Shown: positions 33,923 to 59,462 of the stretch, one piece after another
How positions within the stretch are numbered: position 1 is the stretch's first letter
Layout: each line of letters opens with the position of its first letter
Source of the DNA: Novosphingobium resinovorum
GTDB lineage: Bacteria > Pseudomonadota > Alphaproteobacteria > Sphingomonadales > Sphingomonadaceae
Assembly (NCBI RefSeq): GCF_001742225.1
Contig: NZ_CP017076.1
Span: forward strand, 1,596,501-1,660,500
Length of the DNA stretch: 64,000 nucleotides
Reading direction: 5' to 3'
Translations under genes and position numbers: made by a program
Notes under the pieces: generated by a model
What the model saw: the letters and a program-made list of their open reading frames with translations, nothing else
Databases searched by the model: none
What the model was told of the DNA's origin: nothing

Positions 33923-34165
33923 CTACCTGCCGTTTCGCCTGCCGAATATCTCGGGCAGCGCGGCCAGCGGCAGCACGCAGAACAGCCATAGCATCGCGCC
34001 GATGAGGGCGGTCTCGGCGCCCGCCATCGATGCGGCGCAAGCCAGCGCGAGCAATATGGCGCCGCCTGTCCGCCATGCGTGGGCGCGGTCCTGCGACTTC
34101 GCCCGCCGGATCGCGTGAAATCCCGCCGCAACCAGCAGCAGCGAAAGGAACGTTGCCGCGATCAT
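33923..34165 (-). CDS. DUF3325-type small membrane protein of an iron-uptake operon
   Basis: 80 aa with three predicted helices: IAATFLSLLLVAAGFHAI, ILLALACAASMAGAE and ALIGAMLWLFCVLPLAALPE. ATG 34165 overlaps the PepSY gene stop by 4 bp. Proteins of this size and pattern follow PepSY proteins in siderophore operons (DUF3325). The function is unknown, presumably accessory to the PepSY reductase. The longer frame to 34369 is a shadow of the PepSY gene. Confidence 0.8.
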   Translation of the reverse strand: MIAATFLSLLLVAAGFHAIRRAKSQDRAHAWRTGGAILLALACAASMAGAETALIGAMLWLFCVLPLAALPEIFGRRNGR

Positions 34166-35691
34166 GGGTTCACCTGCGCGTTCATACGGCGCGTCACCCT
34201 CGCGGCCGCGATCCACAGGACGATGCCGATTGCGGTAGCGGTGAGGTCCGCTCCGGCCCGTATCCAGTCGCCCCTCGGCAGCGTCGTCGTGAGCGGGAGG
34301 TTCGCCAGCGCGCTCGTTACCGGGAGCGACAGGCACAGCAGGGCGGCGAGCTGCAGTTGTTCGCCCCATGCCCGGCCCCAGGGGCGTAGACCGGCATGGA
34401 TCAGGGATGCCAGCCAGGCCAGGAAGTAGACCGAGGCCGCCATGGCGCGCCTGTCATCCATGCCCGGGGCCAGCAGCCGTTCGCCGTGGAGATAGGCCGC
34501 GCAGGCGATCACGTTACCGGCTACGGCGGCGACGGTGATCCGGCTCGCCATGGCCTGAAACGGCGACATCGTCTTGCGGGCGCGCTTTTCGGTGAACAGG
34601 ATCAGTCCTGCCGCGACCATCGCGGCGCTGGCAAGGCCGGTGAGGAAATAGAGCCACCGCGCGGCCGCGCCGCCCCACTCGATGAAGTGCAGCCCGGCAA
34701 GGAACGCCTGCGTCTCCCTTGCGGGTGAGCGCTTCACCAGCACGCGCAGCAGCTTGCCGTCGGAGCCTGCGAAGTCCACGCGGTCGGGGAAGTTGGCGAT
34801 GCGGTCGTCGCGCTGGCGCCAGATCTCGACCACGGCATCGGCGCGGTCGGGCTGGCTGACATAGATGTTCACGGCAGGTCCGCCGCCCCATGCCCGTTCG
34901 GCGCGGGGCAACAGCGCGGCCAGATCGACGGTGCGGCGGGGCGCGCCCGGCGGCCGGTCGCCGTCGATGCCGCGGTCGATGTAGAGCGATTGCGCGGCGG
35001 CGGTCTGGTAGGCTTTCACATCGCCGCCGTTCAGCATGGCGACCCCGGCGGGAATGTAGGCGTAATAGATCAGGACGAGGCCGGTATAGGCCATCATGAC
35101 GTGGAACGGCAGCGGCAGCACGGAGAGCACGTTGTGCGCGTCCATCCACGCCCGCTGGCGCGAGGCCCCGGCGCGGAAGGTAAAGAAATCCCGGAATATC
35201 CGCTTGTGGATGATCACGCCGCTGATCGAGGCGGCGAGCATGGCGAGGCCCGCCGCACCGACGATCAGGAAGCCCAGCTGGCTGGACTTGCGATCGATCC
35301 CCAGCGTGTAGTGATAGCGCATGAAGAAGAACCCCGCGTCCATGTCGCGCGGGATGCGGGCGCCGGTCTGCGGGTCGAGCCGGTGCGTGGTGGCCTTGCC
35401 CGCGCGGTCGGTCCAGACGAGGCGGAGCACCGGCTCGCGCGGGGTGGGGATGACGATGCGCCACTGCCGTGCATCGGGCGCGACGCGGGTGAGGTACGCG
35501 CGGCCCATTCGCACCGCATGGGTGCGGTCGATGGTGACGGGAGAGCGCAGTTCGGGCGTCGTCCAGAGATTGATCTCGGTGTAGAACACCGCCAGCGATC
35601 CCGTCAGCAGGACGCCGAACAGCACCCAGCCCAGCAGCAGCCCGCACCAGGTATGAAGCCAGCCCATCGACTGGCGCAGGGTGTCCTTCAC
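34162..35691 (-). CDS. PepSY-associated transmembrane protein (putative inner-membrane reductase)
   Basis: 509 aa, GTG start at 35691 overlapping the upstream stop (GTGA). It has the PepSY_TM layout: first helix at SMGWLHTWCGLLLGWVLFG, an external PepSY segment (SPVTIDRTHAVRMGRAYL, RLVWTDRAGKATTHRLDPQTG), helices around residues 180-200, VLSVLPLPFHVMMAYTGLVL, a second PepSY region (GGPAVNIYVSQPDRADAVVE), HFIEWGGAAARWLYFLTGLA, and further C-terminal helices. Conserved His residues in the helices could bind haem. Relatives such as FoxB and FpvG reduce or process ferric siderophores. Here the operon starts with a receptor under a cobalamin riboswitch, so the cargo may be a corrinoid rather than iron. 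Confidence 0.9.
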   Translation of the reverse strand: MKDTLRQSMGWLHTWCGLLLGWVLFGVLLTGSLAVFYTEINLWTTPELRSPVTIDRTHAVRMGRAYLTRVAPDARQWRIVIPTPREPVLRLVWTDRAGKATTHRLDPQTGARIPRDMDAGFFFMRYHYTLGIDRKSSQLGFLIVGAAGLAMLAASISGVIIHKRIFRDFFTFRAGASRQRAWMDAHNVLSVLPLPFHVMMAYTGLVLIYYAYIPAGVAMLNGGDVKAYQTAAAQSLYIDRGIDGDRPPGAPRRTVDLAALLPRAERAWGGGPAVNIYVSQPDRADAVVEIWRQRDDRIANFPDRVDFAGSDGKLLRVLVKRSPARETQAFLAGLHFIEWGGAAARWLYFLTGLASAAMVAAGLILFTEKRARKTMSPFQAMASRITVAAVAGNVIACAAYLHGERLLAPGMDDRRAMAASVYFLAWLASLIHAGLRPWGRAWGEQLQLAALLCLSLPVTSALANLPLTTTLPRGDWIRAGADLTATAIGIVLWIAAARVTRRMNAQVNP

Positions 35692-35981
35692 CGCCCCAGC
35701 CCCAGCAGCAGGCCCATGGGCAGCGCCGTGCCCAGGAGCAGTTCGCACCAGATGCGCGTGACGCTGCGGACCGCGAAGGCCCGCAGGATCACCGCGACGA
35801 ACACCATGAAGGCAAGGCAGGTGGCGAGGATGTTGGCGTCAACGCCGTCCATCGGCAGCACGCGTACGGCTGCGCCGATCCACGCGTAGCACAGCGCGTA
35901 GGCGCCGACGGTGGCCGCCAACACGCGCGCGGCGATGGCGCGCCAGTTCGGCTCTCGCCCTGGTTTCGGCCTCCCCGCCAC
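35688..35981 (-). CDS. DUF3649-type small membrane protein
   Basis: 97 aa with three predicted helices: AARVLAATVGAYALCYAWIG, LATCLAFMVFVAVILRAF and LLLGTALPMGLLLGLGR. It lies between a TonB receptor (2 bp away) and a PepSY protein (GTGA overlap), the usual place for DUF3649 proteins in receptor, DUF3649, PepSY, DUF3325 operons. No enzymatic motif is visible; it is probably a partner of the PepSY protein. Confidence 0.85.
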   Translation of the reverse strand: MAGRPKPGREPNWRAIAARVLAATVGAYALCYAWIGAAVRVLPMDGVDANILATCLAFMVFVAVILRAFAVRSVTRIWCELLLGTALPMGLLLGLGR

Positions 35982-35983
35982 GG

Positions 35984-38134
35984 TCAGAACCGCTGCTCGA
36001 AGGTGACCGCGACGCTGCGCGGCTCACCCAGGACCCACTGCGAGGTGGAGTAGCTGTTCTGGACGTAGATCCTGTCGAAGACGTTGCGCAAGTTGAGCGT
36101 CACGCTCGTCTTCTCGGCAAGGTCGTAGCGGGCCGAAGCATCGACCAGCGTATAGGCCGGGATGCGCCGGGTATTGGCGGCGTCGGAGTATCGCTTGCCG
36201 ACATACCGCAGGCCCGCGTCCAGATGCAGCGGCTGCACCGGCCGCCATGACAGCCACAGGTTGGCCGCCTTTTCCGCGACGCCGATGGGCATGTTGCCGT
36301 CCCGGCTGACCAGCGCGGTGCCGACCAGTTCGTCGAAGTCGTCGTACCGCGCGTTCAGGATCGTGCCGTTGGCGAGCACGCTGAAGTCCTTCGTCACCGC
36401 CAGTCCGAACGAGGCCTCGACGCCGTAGGAAGATTGCTGTCCGACCTGCACCGACACGGTGGGATCGTTGGCGGATCGGGTCAGGATCTTCTTCTTGACG
36501 ATGCGATAGCCTGACAGCGTGAACTCGCCGCGTCCGTCCAGGAAGGTCGCCTTGACCCCGGCCTCCCACTGGCGCCCGGTGGAAACGTCGAAGGTGGTCT
36601 GCGCCAGCGTCGCCGTGAGGAACGCCGTCACCGGGTCCGCCGCCGCCGAATACTGCGCATAGAGCGAGATCGTGTCGCTGGGGTTGTAGACCAGCCCCGT
36701 GCGCCAGCTGGTGCTCGGATAGCGGGCGGTGTAGTCCGCCGCCGGATCGAGGGCATCGTGCCGCTCGGTCTTCGGGCGATCGTAGCGCAGCCCCGTCACC
36801 AGCGAGAGCCGGTCGGACAGCGAGAGCCGGCTTTCGCCGAACAGCGCCCATTGCTGCACATCGGTCTTGTACTTGTAGCGGGTGCCGAATGTGCCGTCGA
36901 GGAACGTGCCCGGCGTATAGTCGTAAGGATCGACGAGGTCGAAGCGGCTGTTGGGCGAACTGTCGGTGCGCAGCAGCGAGCCGGTGTTGTACTCGCCGCC
37001 CAGGCTCAGGCGGTGGTCCATGCCAAGCAGCGTATGATCGAACACCGCGTTGAAGCGGTCGCCCCACTGTTTCGTCTTGTAGACAATCTCCAGATAGCTC
37101 GAGCGGCGGATCTGGTCGCCGGACCAGGCATAGCCCTCGGCATTGCGCCAGTGCTTGAAGCCGGTGAGGTAGTAGGCGACGTTGGTGATCGTCACCCCCT
37201 CGGCCGGTGTCCATTCGGCCTTGGCCTGGGTCCAGGCATCGTCGAAACGCAGCGAGCGGTCGGCGATGTTGTAGTTCTTCTTGCGGATTTCGCGCACCAG
37301 TTTGCCGTCTCGCAGCGGAGTGCCGTACCAGATCGTCGGGTCGAGGTCGGCGCGGTCGTGCGTCAGCGTCAGCACGAGGTCGTCGCGCGCCTGCCAGCGC
37401 AGCGCCGCCGAAAGCGCAAGACTGCGCGATTGCCCGCGCTCCATCCACCCGTCCGAACGGTTGTAGCTGAGATCGACGCGGTACGAGAGCCTGTCTCCGA
37501 TCGGCCCGCCGATCCCGCCCGCCGCCGCATAAGTATCGAATGAACCGCCGCTGAGACGGACCTCGCCTTCGAACTGCTCGGTATTGGGCTTCTTGCGCAC
37601 GACGTTGATCGCGCCGCCGATGCCGCCCTCTCCATAGAGGACCGAGGCCGCACCGCGCAGGACCTCGATCCGCTCGGCCATCCACGGGTCGGCGGGGAAG
37701 GTCTGCGTGGTCGTCGTGTAGACGCGCATCCCGTCGTAGAGCTGCATCACCGAGGTGTAGCCGGTGAACCCGCGCGAACTCAGCGAGTAACCGAAGGCCG
37801 AGCTGTTGTTGATGAGCCCCGGCGCGCGCGCGGCTGCGGCAACCACGGTGCGGTCGCCCAGGCTGCGGATCATCTCCCTGGTGATGACGTCGACGCTGGC
37901 CGGCGTCTGCATCGGCGTGAGGCCGAGGCGGCTGGAGGCGTCGGCCTGCTGGCCGAGTTGCAGGACACCCGCCTTGCGCGCGGTGACGACGATATTGCCC
38001 GCATCCGTGTTATTGGCATTCTCCGGCGCCGTCTCGGCGGCTTCCTGCGCCTGCGCCGAAGTCGCGGACATGCCAAGCATGCAGAATGACGCGCCCGAAG
38101 CGATCAGGCCGGAAAGAAGCGATCTCGTATTCAT
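35984..38134 (-). CDS. TonB-dependent receptor under a cobalamin riboswitch
   Basis: 716 aa from ATG 38134, with GGGGG 7 nt upstream; the frame to 38269 reads through the leader. The signal peptide ends TSAQAQ. The plug contains MQTPASVDVITREMIRSLGD and MAERIEVLRGAASVLYGEGG, the barrel ends NVFDRIYVQNSY and a terminal Phe (AVTFEQRF). Sequence style is that of siderophore receptors, and the downstream DUF3649-PepSY-DUF3325 genes are normally iron-linked. Yet an AdoCbl-type riboswitch lies about 200 nt upstream on the same strand, so expression should fall when cobalamin is plentiful. It may take up a corrinoid, a cobalt complex, or a siderophore regulated in an unusual way. Confidence 0.93.
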   Translation of the reverse strand: MNTRSLLSGLIASGASFCMLGMSATSAQAQEAAETAPENANNTDAGNIVVTARKAGVLQLGQQADASSRLGLTPMQTPASVDVITREMIRSLGDRTVVAAAARAPGLINNSSAFGYSLSSRGFTGYTSVMQLYDGMRVYTTTTQTFPADPWMAERIEVLRGAASVLYGEGGIGGAINVVRKKPNTEQFEGEVRLSGGSFDTYAAAGGIGGPIGDRLSYRVDLSYNRSDGWMERGQSRSLALSAALRWQARDDLVLTLTHDRADLDPTIWYGTPLRDGKLVREIRKKNYNIADRSLRFDDAWTQAKAEWTPAEGVTITNVAYYLTGFKHWRNAEGYAWSGDQIRRSSYLEIVYKTKQWGDRFNAVFDHTLLGMDHRLSLGGEYNTGSLLRTDSSPNSRFDLVDPYDYTPGTFLDGTFGTRYKYKTDVQQWALFGESRLSLSDRLSLVTGLRYDRPKTERHDALDPAADYTARYPSTSWRTGLVYNPSDTISLYAQYSAAADPVTAFLTATLAQTTFDVSTGRQWEAGVKATFLDGRGEFTLSGYRIVKKKILTRSANDPTVSVQVGQQSSYGVEASFGLAVTKDFSVLANGTILNARYDDFDELVGTALVSRDGNMPIGVAEKAANLWLSWRPVQPLHLDAGLRYVGKRYSDAANTRRIPAYTLVDASARYDLAEKTSVTLNLRNVFDRIYVQNSYSTSQWVLGEPRSVAVTFEQRF

Positions 38135-38230
38135 GTTGTAACCCCCGTTGCGTTTCCCAGTCGAACGGACAGGTTCCCGCGAGAGGGGTGTCCCCCCGCA
38201 CGGGTGCAGCGGCGGAATCCGGGCGCGAAC

Positions 38231-38334
38231 GAGCGACCGGCGAAACCCACCGTTGCGGCCTGGCCGCAAGTTCGTCGCTCAGACGGAGTACACCGTGCCG
38301 CGGCCATCCCCTGGACCAAGGCAAGAGCGACCGG
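38231..38334 (-). promoter_or_regulatory. Possible expression platform of the cobalamin riboswitch
   Basis: On the transcript, CCGGTCGCTC occurs twice (38334-38325 and 38240-38231), and between them lies GAGCGAC (38280-38274), which can pair with either copy but not both. The first copy abuts the aptamer P1 stem. A further hairpin, GCGGCC-A-GGCCGC, lies between. The arrangement suits a ligand-dependent switch; no T-tract is present, so control at translation or Rho is more likely. Confidence 0.4.
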
Positions 38335-38553
38335 ACGCTGGCAGGTCTCCTGGCTTACGGGTCGTCACGCGATGCACGGCCTTCCCAGGCCTCGCAGGAG
38401 TTAGCGTCCGGCCCAGTGGCTGCGGCAGGGCACATTGGCCTGCCGCGATATGCATCGCGCTCACCGCTTACAGTTGCAGGGACAGCCTCGGCTTCGAGGG
38501 GTAGCCCCTCTCACCGCGTTCCCTTTTAAGCCCCTTTCGGAAGGCACCAACGC
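38335..38553 (-). ncRNA. Cobalamin (AdoCbl) riboswitch
   Basis: Reading the minus strand: P1 5' side GCGTTGG, then GGTGCC, AAAAGGGAACGCGGTGAGAG, the B12-box core CTGTCCCTGCAACTGTAAGCGG, GCCACTGG, CTGGGAAGGC and the 3' part GACCCGTAAGCCAGGAGACC followed by P1 3' side CCAGCGT. These are the conserved blocks of the cobalamin riboswitch in the right order and spacing; only the B12 core departs slightly. It precedes the TonB receptor at 35984-38134. The 200-nt leader behind it contains competing complementary segments that could form the switch. Confidence 0.95.
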
Positions 38554-38710
38554 GATCGTGTCCCCCTTTTCGGAGGGACGGGCGGGGGATTATTCGCTGC
38601 GCGCACGATTTGCAAGCCGTTCGCGTGGGGCCTTCCGAAAGCCCGTCCTGCGAGTTTTCGGTTGCAACCTTGCTTTTCATTTTGGGCAACCCGTGCAATT
38701 TGCGGTGCCG

Positions 38711-39010
38711 ATGACTGATCCACGACTCACCCTGATGGAAGCCATAGCCACGCGAAAGTTCGTGACGGCGCGTTACAACGGCAACACGATCACGCTTGCC
38801 CCGCACATGCTGTTCGAAAGGCACGGCGATCTTGTCGTCAGTGCCATGAACCCCGCGAAGGCACGCCGCAGCGACGAGGAGCCGGGTCTCGGCCAGTTCA
38901 AGCTGGCGGGCCTCTCGTCGATGGAACTGCTGAACGAGCACTTCGAGCCTCTGCCCTCCTACGACGGTACGCCCCCGCGCAGCGACGATTCCCTGATCCT
39001 TTCGGTCTGA
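38711..39010 (+). CDS. Small WYL-domain-like protein
   Basis: 99 aa from ATG 38711; the frame further upstream crosses the antisense of the riboswitch and is not coding. The body reads LMEAIATRKFVTARYNGNTI, LAPHMLFERHGDLVVSAMNP and FKLAGLSSMELLNEHFEPLP, which has the beta-strand pattern of a WYL domain, the ligand-binding part of some transcription regulators, but without a DNA-binding domain. It is divergent from the riboswitch-controlled operon. Role unknown. Confidence 0.7.
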   Translation: MTDPRLTLMEAIATRKFVTARYNGNTITLAPHMLFERHGDLVVSAMNPAKARRSDEEPGLGQFKLAGLSSMELLNEHFEPLPSYDGTPPRSDDSLILSV

Positions 39011-59319: not shown

Positions 59320-59420
59320 CGCTCCATCCCCGGGGGGCCGCTCATGCGCGGCTGAGAGGTGGTCAGCAGACCACGACCCGCTGAACCTGATCCGGTTGAC
59401 ACCGGCGTAGGGAGGGCTGG
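59320..59420 (+). ncRNA. TPP riboswitch (THI element)
   Basis: Conserved blocks in order: GGGGGGCC (from 59332), GCGGCTGAGAGG (59348-59359), GACCCGCTGAACCTGATCCG (59375-59394) and the closing ACACCGGCGTAGGGAGGG (59399-59416). These match the thi-box consensus closely, with a 16-nt variable P3 stem GGTGGTC/GACCAC. It precedes the TonB receptor, kinase and PnuT genes. Downstream CTCC (59438-59441) can pair with GGAG (59446-59449) near the start codon, a likely translational switch. Confidence 0.96.
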
Positions 59421-59462
59421 CGGCAGGTCCGTTATCCCTCCGAGTGGAGTGGACGCGAGACT

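Follow-up and report, generated by a model that had tools for sequence, protein, structure and literature searches.

TonB-dependent receptors for cobalt have been predicted behind adenosylcobalamin (AdoCbl) riboswitches in Novosphingobium aromaticivorans (PMC7689651), and Daro_1684 of Dechloromonas is another predicted receptor of this kind (PMC2773004); both papers credit such predictions to Rodionov et al. 2006. According to a 2021 review, some cobalt receptors have been predicted from B12 riboswitches, but confirmation is lacking for any outer-membrane receptor specific to cobalt (PMC7689651). For IcuAB of Methylobacterium extorquens, genetics show that the TonB receptor improves cobalt uptake (PMC2732905, PMC2773004). 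CrtA of Bordetella pertussis is a copper receptor from a system composed of a receptor and a PepSY protein (PMC12914433), and in a B12-auxotrophic Sphingomonas the arrangement riboswitch-BtuB-HoxN-CobW-CobN-CobO-BtuF has been reported (PMC6970198). We analysed a stretch of 64,000 nucleotides of Novosphingobium resinovorum (contig NZ_CP017076.1, positions 1,596,501 to 1,660,500), referred to here as the window, in which a cobalamin riboswitch heads an operon for a CrtA-like TonB receptor, a PepSY_TM protein and two small membrane proteins. On balance, we lean towards the view that this operon takes up chelated cobalt for B12 synthesis.

Cobalt receptors behind B12 riboswitches are thus already known as predictions, and what is new here is the PepSY-paired, CrtA-like version. 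Compared by description, the locus resembles the predicted cobalt receptors in its riboswitch (the Novosphingobium case), its TonB receptor and the NiCoT permease and CobW context of its relatives, and differs from them in that no PepSY, DUF3649 or DUF3325 partner is mentioned for those in the parts of the papers available (PMC7689651, PMC2773004). Likewise by description, it shares with IcuAB a TonB receptor tied to cobalt; unlike here, the partner of IcuAB is a small COG5266 protein instead of a PepSY protein, and the word riboswitch does not occur in the text of either PMC2732905 or PMC2773004. In the open-licence literature, the scope of our search (which left subscription papers outside), we found no description of a PepSY protein paired with a cobalamin riboswitch, and no paper on the combination of PepSY, cobalt, B12 and TonB, as judged from titles and the beginnings of abstracts. 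The riboswitch, the operon, the class of the receptor, the conserved histidines and the co-occurrence with cobalt and corrin genes were computed directly. The features of the locus are the following, numbered from the first base of the window.

38323..38564, reverse strand: cobalamin riboswitch aptamer, full length (RF00174 covariance-model search, 94.4 bits, E 3.2e-22 for the 64 kb)
38340..38355, reverse strand: B12 box AGCCAGGAGACCTGCC, exact (sequence and motif scan)
38235..38339 (lower edge approximate), reverse strand: conserved downstream leader of about 105 nt, probable expression platform (alignment of 16 chosen leaders)
35984..38134, reverse strand: TonB-dependent receptor, 716 aa, siderophore-receptor type, CrtA-like (Pfam, TIGR01783, PDB 9rvq)
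35688..35981, reverse strand: DUF3649-like small membrane protein, 97 aa, GTG start (PF12365, 17.1 bits; homologues in L014 and L160)
34162..35691, reverse strand: PepSY_TM protein of the FoxB-type superfamily (PF03929, 192 bits; the GTG start at 35691 matches the start of the homologues)
33923..34165, reverse strand: DUF3325-like small membrane protein, 80 aa (PF11804, 14.6 bits; position; homologues)

An earlier interpretation of the same DNA, the sequence-only reading, had placed a cobalamin riboswitch at the head of the operon, and the search bears this out: the match lies well above the RF00174 gathering score of 31.5 bits, spans the full model (1-189), includes an exact B12 box and reaches 11 bases past 38553, where the element had been thought to end. 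A scan of 38100-38800 revealed neither a terminator-like nor a sigma-70-like site. The leader of about 105 nt past the B12 box is strongly conserved among sphingomonad B12 riboswitches, as seen in 16 chosen leaders (38235-38339 of the window and, with L and G numbers as our handles for loci and genomes, L002, L004, L005, L007, L015-L018, L021-L026 and L093); it is absent from the Croceibacterium locus (L014) and, within the own genome, from two further riboswitches (L001, L003). A helix of 7 pairs, GTCGCTC/GAGCGAC, keeps standard pairs in all 16 leaders of the alignment, and RNAalifold gives little covariation (-1.33 kcal/mol), mainly because the leader is almost invariant. This segment is probably an expression platform shared by sphingomonad B12 riboswitches.

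Behind the riboswitch come the receptor, the DUF3649-like protein, the PepSY_TM protein and the DUF3325-like protein, all on the reverse strand, with a gap of 2 nt between the receptor stop and the following GTG and then overlaps of 4 nt (GTGA and ATGA). The four-gene layout had been described correctly as to positions, receptor and PepSY protein; the labels DUF3649 and DUF3325 fall below the Pfam cut-offs (21.2 bits for PF12365 and 26.8 bits for PF11804), so that neither protein qualifies as a member and both names are weak ones, given from position and slight similarity. None of the six homologues of the DUF3325-like protein carries a Pfam label, and the L160 homologue of the DUF3649-like protein matched no Pfam family at E 0.01. 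Three genomes were found whose receptor is at least 60% identical, the own genome included, and riboswitch and gene order are kept in all three. In G493 (receptor 93% identical) the riboswitch is known by its B12 box only, and in Croceibacterium xixiisoli (63% identical) by RF00174 as well, the DUF3325-like match of the latter being short (40% over 57 aa). A protein search gave eight proteins 63-92% identical to the receptor, without gene context, some of them possibly from these same three genomes. The riboswitch-headed operon is a real, conserved module.

The receptor, with Plug and TonB barrel domains in Pfam, reaches 286 bits on the siderophore-receptor model TIGR01783, above the cut-off of 223.5. 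On TIGR01779, the model for the B12 receptor BtuB, it obtains only 82 bits against a cut-off of 599.7 and is not a BtuB by that measure, whereas the two BtuB-like receptors of the same genome obtain 350 and 262 bits, also under the cut-off. These values bear on the idea put forward in the sequence-only reading, that the operon is a corrinoid uptake system with a dedicated reductase. As we consider it here, the substrate would be cobinamide, a cobamide or a metal-free corrin, and the PepSY protein would act on Co(III) in the periplasm or strip an upper ligand. Control by a riboswitch upstream of a TonB receptor is indeed like that of BtuB. However, the receptor is of siderophore type and distant from the models for BtuB, and two BtuB-like receptors, each with its own riboswitch, are already present in the genome. 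Corrinoid uptake is in consequence the less supported option, and we regard it as unlikely, although with arguments in its favour that are taken up below.

The nearest solved relative of the receptor is PDB 9rvq (320 bits, the runner-up having 139), which is CrtA, with 33% identity over 659 columns. The premise that a layout of this type is normally an iron module was therefore incomplete, since copper is the substrate of the closest PepSY-partnered receptor that has been characterised (PMC12914433). The two receptors belong to one wider family, and in both systems a PepSY_TM protein with histidines of haem-binding type comes after the receptor (PMC12914433, PMC13038864), here with one small gene between them. 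One may thus think of copper uptake as in CrtA/CrpH, with a B12 control that is accidental or serves a B12-linked need for copper, and we consider this very improbable. Of the six residues of the CrtA ligand site, only E337 and R395 are matched; Q356 is replaced by Ile and H358 by Tyr (residue 352 of the window receptor, Tyr in all three members of its clade), and in CrtA the Ser mutant of H358 loses function (PMC12914433). Copper control by CruR (DUF2946) is published for more than 40% of CrtA operons (PMC12914433), whereas here a B12 riboswitch and two extra small proteins are found, and one CruR-like and one PCuAC protein used as queries gave no match in the window at E 1e-3, nor did the neighbourhoods of 57 riboswitch-headed relatives contain either. 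Position 358 is not a simple switch between copper and cobalt, an idea that we discarded: His is retained in most riboswitch forms, and Tyr, accompanied by Arg (Lys in L085), appears in two separate clades, all of them riboswitch forms. As most riboswitch forms keep the His, the residue offers a clue to metal choice and does not prove it.

The PepSY protein scores 192 bits on PF03929 (cut-off 28.8) and belongs to that family. Its histidines 32, 146, 205 and 354, numbered from a start at 35748, are invariant in 42 of 42 aligned PepSY proteins. The only solved relative found with the PepSY profile is PDB 7abw (57 bits), which we take to be FoxB of Pseudomonas aeruginosa; the two share the PepSY_TM architecture, and the alignment is partial, covering part of the histidines and leaving the region of His 205 unaligned. 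The operon and regulation of FoxB differ from those found here, and its substrate is an iron siderophore. A ferric xenosiderophore uptake system brought under B12 control, with the PepSY protein as ferric reductase in the manner of FoxB, would agree with this structural relative, presumed to be FoxB, and with the siderophore-receptor model that the receptor passes. We find this improbable, because cobalt and corrin genes adjoin the riboswitch forms (iron genes were not searched for) and the link to B12 would be without purpose. In FoxB such histidines hold two haems, and haem motifs are needed in CrpH of the copper system (PMC13038864). By analogy, the four invariant histidines may be haem ligands, and a redox role of the PepSY protein is likely.

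For the genomic context of the receptor, one genome per species was scanned and the best 80 of 366 relatives were kept as loci. According to the B12 box, 57 have a riboswitch, 22 do not, and one (L068) is cut by a contig end and excluded from the comparisons. Searches with RF00174, covering 43 and 32 genomes, back 54 of the 57, and L043, L066 and L082 have the B12 box only; in four of the 57 (L037-L039 and L045) the riboswitch lies about 4 kb upstream, heading a cluster of ABC and receptor genes. In the receptor tree (FastTree, 103 rows; the family loci L105, L113, L116 and L119 are outside it and inside the riboswitch counts), the riboswitch state changes at least seven times, and the window receptor forms with Croceibacterium a clade beside other close sphingomonad receptors. 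The search for neighbours up to 8 kb away used tblastn, a fixed set of reference proteins and cut-offs in bits, some loci ending at contig ends; CobW was counted only above 300 bits, which excludes the weaker CobW-like matches of L066, L069, L070 and L084. Cobalt or corrin genes are present beside 19 of the 57 riboswitch loci and none of the 22 others (Fisher p 0.0009), whereas the copper genes PCuAC or CruR are near none of the 57 and three of the 22. Twelve Variovorax loci have riboswitch, receptor, PepSY, CbiM, CobW and CobN in this order. In Cupriavidus basilensis (L047) NicO comes after PepSY and CobN is on the opposite strand, two further Cupriavidus loci (L051, L052) have CobW after the receptor, and CbtAB is nearby in Sphingomonas montanisoli (L022). 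The other cases are CobN (L038), a CobQ-like gene (L032) and BluB with a CobQ-like gene (L073, CobQ with only 61 bits). Two more genomes have the receptor and PepSY adjoining CobW-CobN-CobO, with CbiM (L125) or CbtAB (L126); Pfam confirms the names of CbtA/CbtB, CobO and the CbiM of L125.

The pairing of riboswitch and PepSY reductase family, for which a search of other genomes had been proposed, recurs in them: among riboswitch forms, PepSY follows 43 of the 57 receptors, a FecCD-type ABC set accompanies five, both occur in none and neither in nine. Where the riboswitch is missing, 15 of the 22 loci have PepSY close by and four have FecCD, two having both. The alternation in riboswitch forms suggests that PepSY is a substitute for inner-membrane import of the chelate, releasing the metal in the periplasm, so that there may be two routes onward. 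The pairing is real and conserved. The corrinoid reading attached to it is less supported and is kept alive by Croceibacterium xixiisoli. Relatives of Azospirillum type, in which the receptor is clustered with BtuF/C/D-like ABC genes, speak for corrinoid uptake, and the metal-ion permeases and CobW/CobN adjoining other relatives speak against it. From the neighbouring genes and the co-occurrence counts, uptake of a cobalt chelate, mentioned as an alternative in the sequence-only reading, is the best fit of its options. A copper-context version is seen in Pseudomonas (L089, L091), where PCuAC, DUF2946 (CruR-like), PepSY and an ABC set stand with a relative of the receptor and without a riboswitch.

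The co-occurrence with corrin synthesis was counted in samples of the family and the genus, in which riboswitch means a B12 box within 1.5 kb and farther ones (the ABC type) would escape. In the genus (195 genomes), 18 of the 21 genomes with a receptor at E <= 1e-120 have an upstream B12 box. Among 397 Sphingomonadaceae, 26 have the receptor at the same threshold, 15 with the box and 11 without (the second receptor of G083, L120, has no box and is not counted as a genome). CbiC is present in nine of the 15 and in none of the 11; among the remaining 371 genomes it was found in 10 (p 6.5e-10 against all others). CobN is present in 14 of the 15 and none of the 11, the single exception being in the clade of the window; this assignment was checked with the curated model for four of the 14 genomes (G000, G364, G110, G319) and made by type of PF02514 score for the remainder, PF02514 including BchH as well as CobN. 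Four of the 11 riboswitch-less genomes have PF02514 proteins other than CobN, of which one passes the BchH models, two are under the cut-offs and one was left unscanned. If three of the 11 are conservatively taken as CobN, p is 0.0008, and with all PF02514 matches (four of 11) it is 0.003. Proteins of about 1340 aa in L133 and L134, CobN/BchH-like and below both cut-offs, are perhaps a third type of chelatase. In a wider set, made up of the genomes from which the 80 loci come (riboswitch state clear in 74, relatedness uncorrected; G017 and G018, with one receptor of each kind, counted as riboswitch-form), CbiC is present in 28 of 54 riboswitch-form genomes against three of 20 others (p 0.007), and PF02514 in 52 of 54 against 10 of 20 (p 1.2e-5, BchH not separated).

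The genome of N. resinovorum itself has seven B12 riboswitches according to the RF00174 search. Besides the one of the window operon, they are the following.

L008: riboswitch heading a BtuB-like receptor, then cobT and, further on, a cobQ-like gene
L009: riboswitch heading a cluster with a nitrite/sulphite-reductase-like protein (probably CobG), CbiC and CobJ
L010: riboswitch heading a BtuB-like receptor with BtuF-, BtuC- and BtuD-type genes
L011: riboswitch heading a lone receptor
L012: riboswitch heading CobW-CobN-CobO, a nitroreductase-family protein and a FecCD protein
L013: riboswitch heading a NicO/HoxN-type transporter

The nitroreductase-family protein of L012 may be read as BluB, Pfam giving only Nitroreductase. 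With these corrin and cobalt genes the host is probably able to make B12, and it already has two BtuB-like receptors under B12 control. The statement that no BtuCDF genes accompany the operon holds for the adjoining genes and not for the genome, in view of L010. The lone TonB receptor of L011 (7587-9836, reverse strand) is near no solved receptor, the best match being BtuB with 28 bits. Within the window, a thiamine pyrophosphate (TPP) riboswitch was also found at 59321-59430 on the forward strand (69.6 bits).

Several observations weigh against uptake of cobalt for B12 synthesis. No cobalt gene was found beside the window operon among the proteins searched, and the window PepSY is of a subfamily other than that of most relatives (17-21% identity to the six compared), both subfamilies having the four invariant histidines. 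As PepSY is also near 15 of the 22 receptors without riboswitch, the pairing itself is not specific for cobalt. Twelve of the 19 loci with cobalt genes are from Variovorax and the p values ignore shared ancestry; moreover, riboswitch loci supplied the cobalt reference proteins and a riboswitch-less locus those for copper, which possibly favoured the contrast. Genomes without the riboswitch still have PF02514 in 10 of 20 cases and CbiC in three of 20. Of the 54 riboswitch-form genomes, 26 have no CbiC, including every Cupriavidus and almost every Variovorax searched, and PF02514 is present in 25 of those 26; Variovorax ginsengisoli (G039) has CbiC and no PF02514. Croceibacterium xixiisoli, with the same riboswitch and operon, has no CbiC, no CobN and, over the cut-off, no CobJ; cobalt would not feed any corrin synthesis of its own there, and corrinoid uptake is therefore possible for the clade of the window.

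This last genome and the lack of CbiC in 26 of 54 are arguments that corrinoid uptake retains. In its favour, a frame of 752 aa in Croceibacterium, probably a mutase, contains a B12-binding domain; a BtuB-like receptor of that genome (234 bits, under the model cut-off) speaks against a corrinoid role of the operon. At L121 (7269-8195) of the same genome, the second B12 riboswitch precedes a thioesterase-family gene (4HBT, 115 bits, Pfam), not a B12 gene. A use of cobalt only for de novo corrin synthesis was rejected as a full account, given the PF02514 proteins of the CbiC-less genomes. CobN-family proteins occur in the CbiC-less G136, G364, G395, G409 and G437 of Sphingomonadaceae and in L122, L125 and L126; such genomes often have CobW behind B12 riboswitches and, where tested, no CobJ over the cut-off. 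One idea is that cobalt may be inserted there without synthesis of the corrin ring, in the salvage of metal-free corrins.

For the uptake of chelated cobalt, the substrate, the redox step, the direction of control and the inner-membrane partner are the parts that we infer, and the mechanism would be as follows. With plentiful B12, the riboswitch, switching in the AdoCbl manner, would repress the metal-chelate uptake operon. Under B12 shortage, the TonB receptor would import a small cobalt chelate to the periplasm, where the PepSY_TM protein, accompanied by the two small membrane proteins, would pass electrons through two haems to the chelate, so that Co(III) becomes Co(II) and the metal is freed. 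Co(II) would then pass through the inner membrane via a permease whose gene lies elsewhere, here probably the NicO/HoxN transporter behind its own B12 riboswitch, and proceed via CobW to CobN for corrin synthesis. Rather tentatively, we extend this to the B12-riboswitch branch of CrtA-like receptors, which might import Co(III) chelates with release by a haem PepSY protein and have two interchangeable ways onward, PepSY with a metal permease or an ABC importer; the clade of the window might have recruited the second PepSY subfamily and the two small membrane proteins.

We think that this widespread receptor family offers a clear genetic test for an outer-membrane cobalt receptor. Reductive release by the PepSY protein is a likely added step, which was not found in the literature searched. 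Moreover, the copper system CrtA/CrpH becomes linked to a probable cobalt sister branch, so that metal choice within one fold can be compared at named residues.

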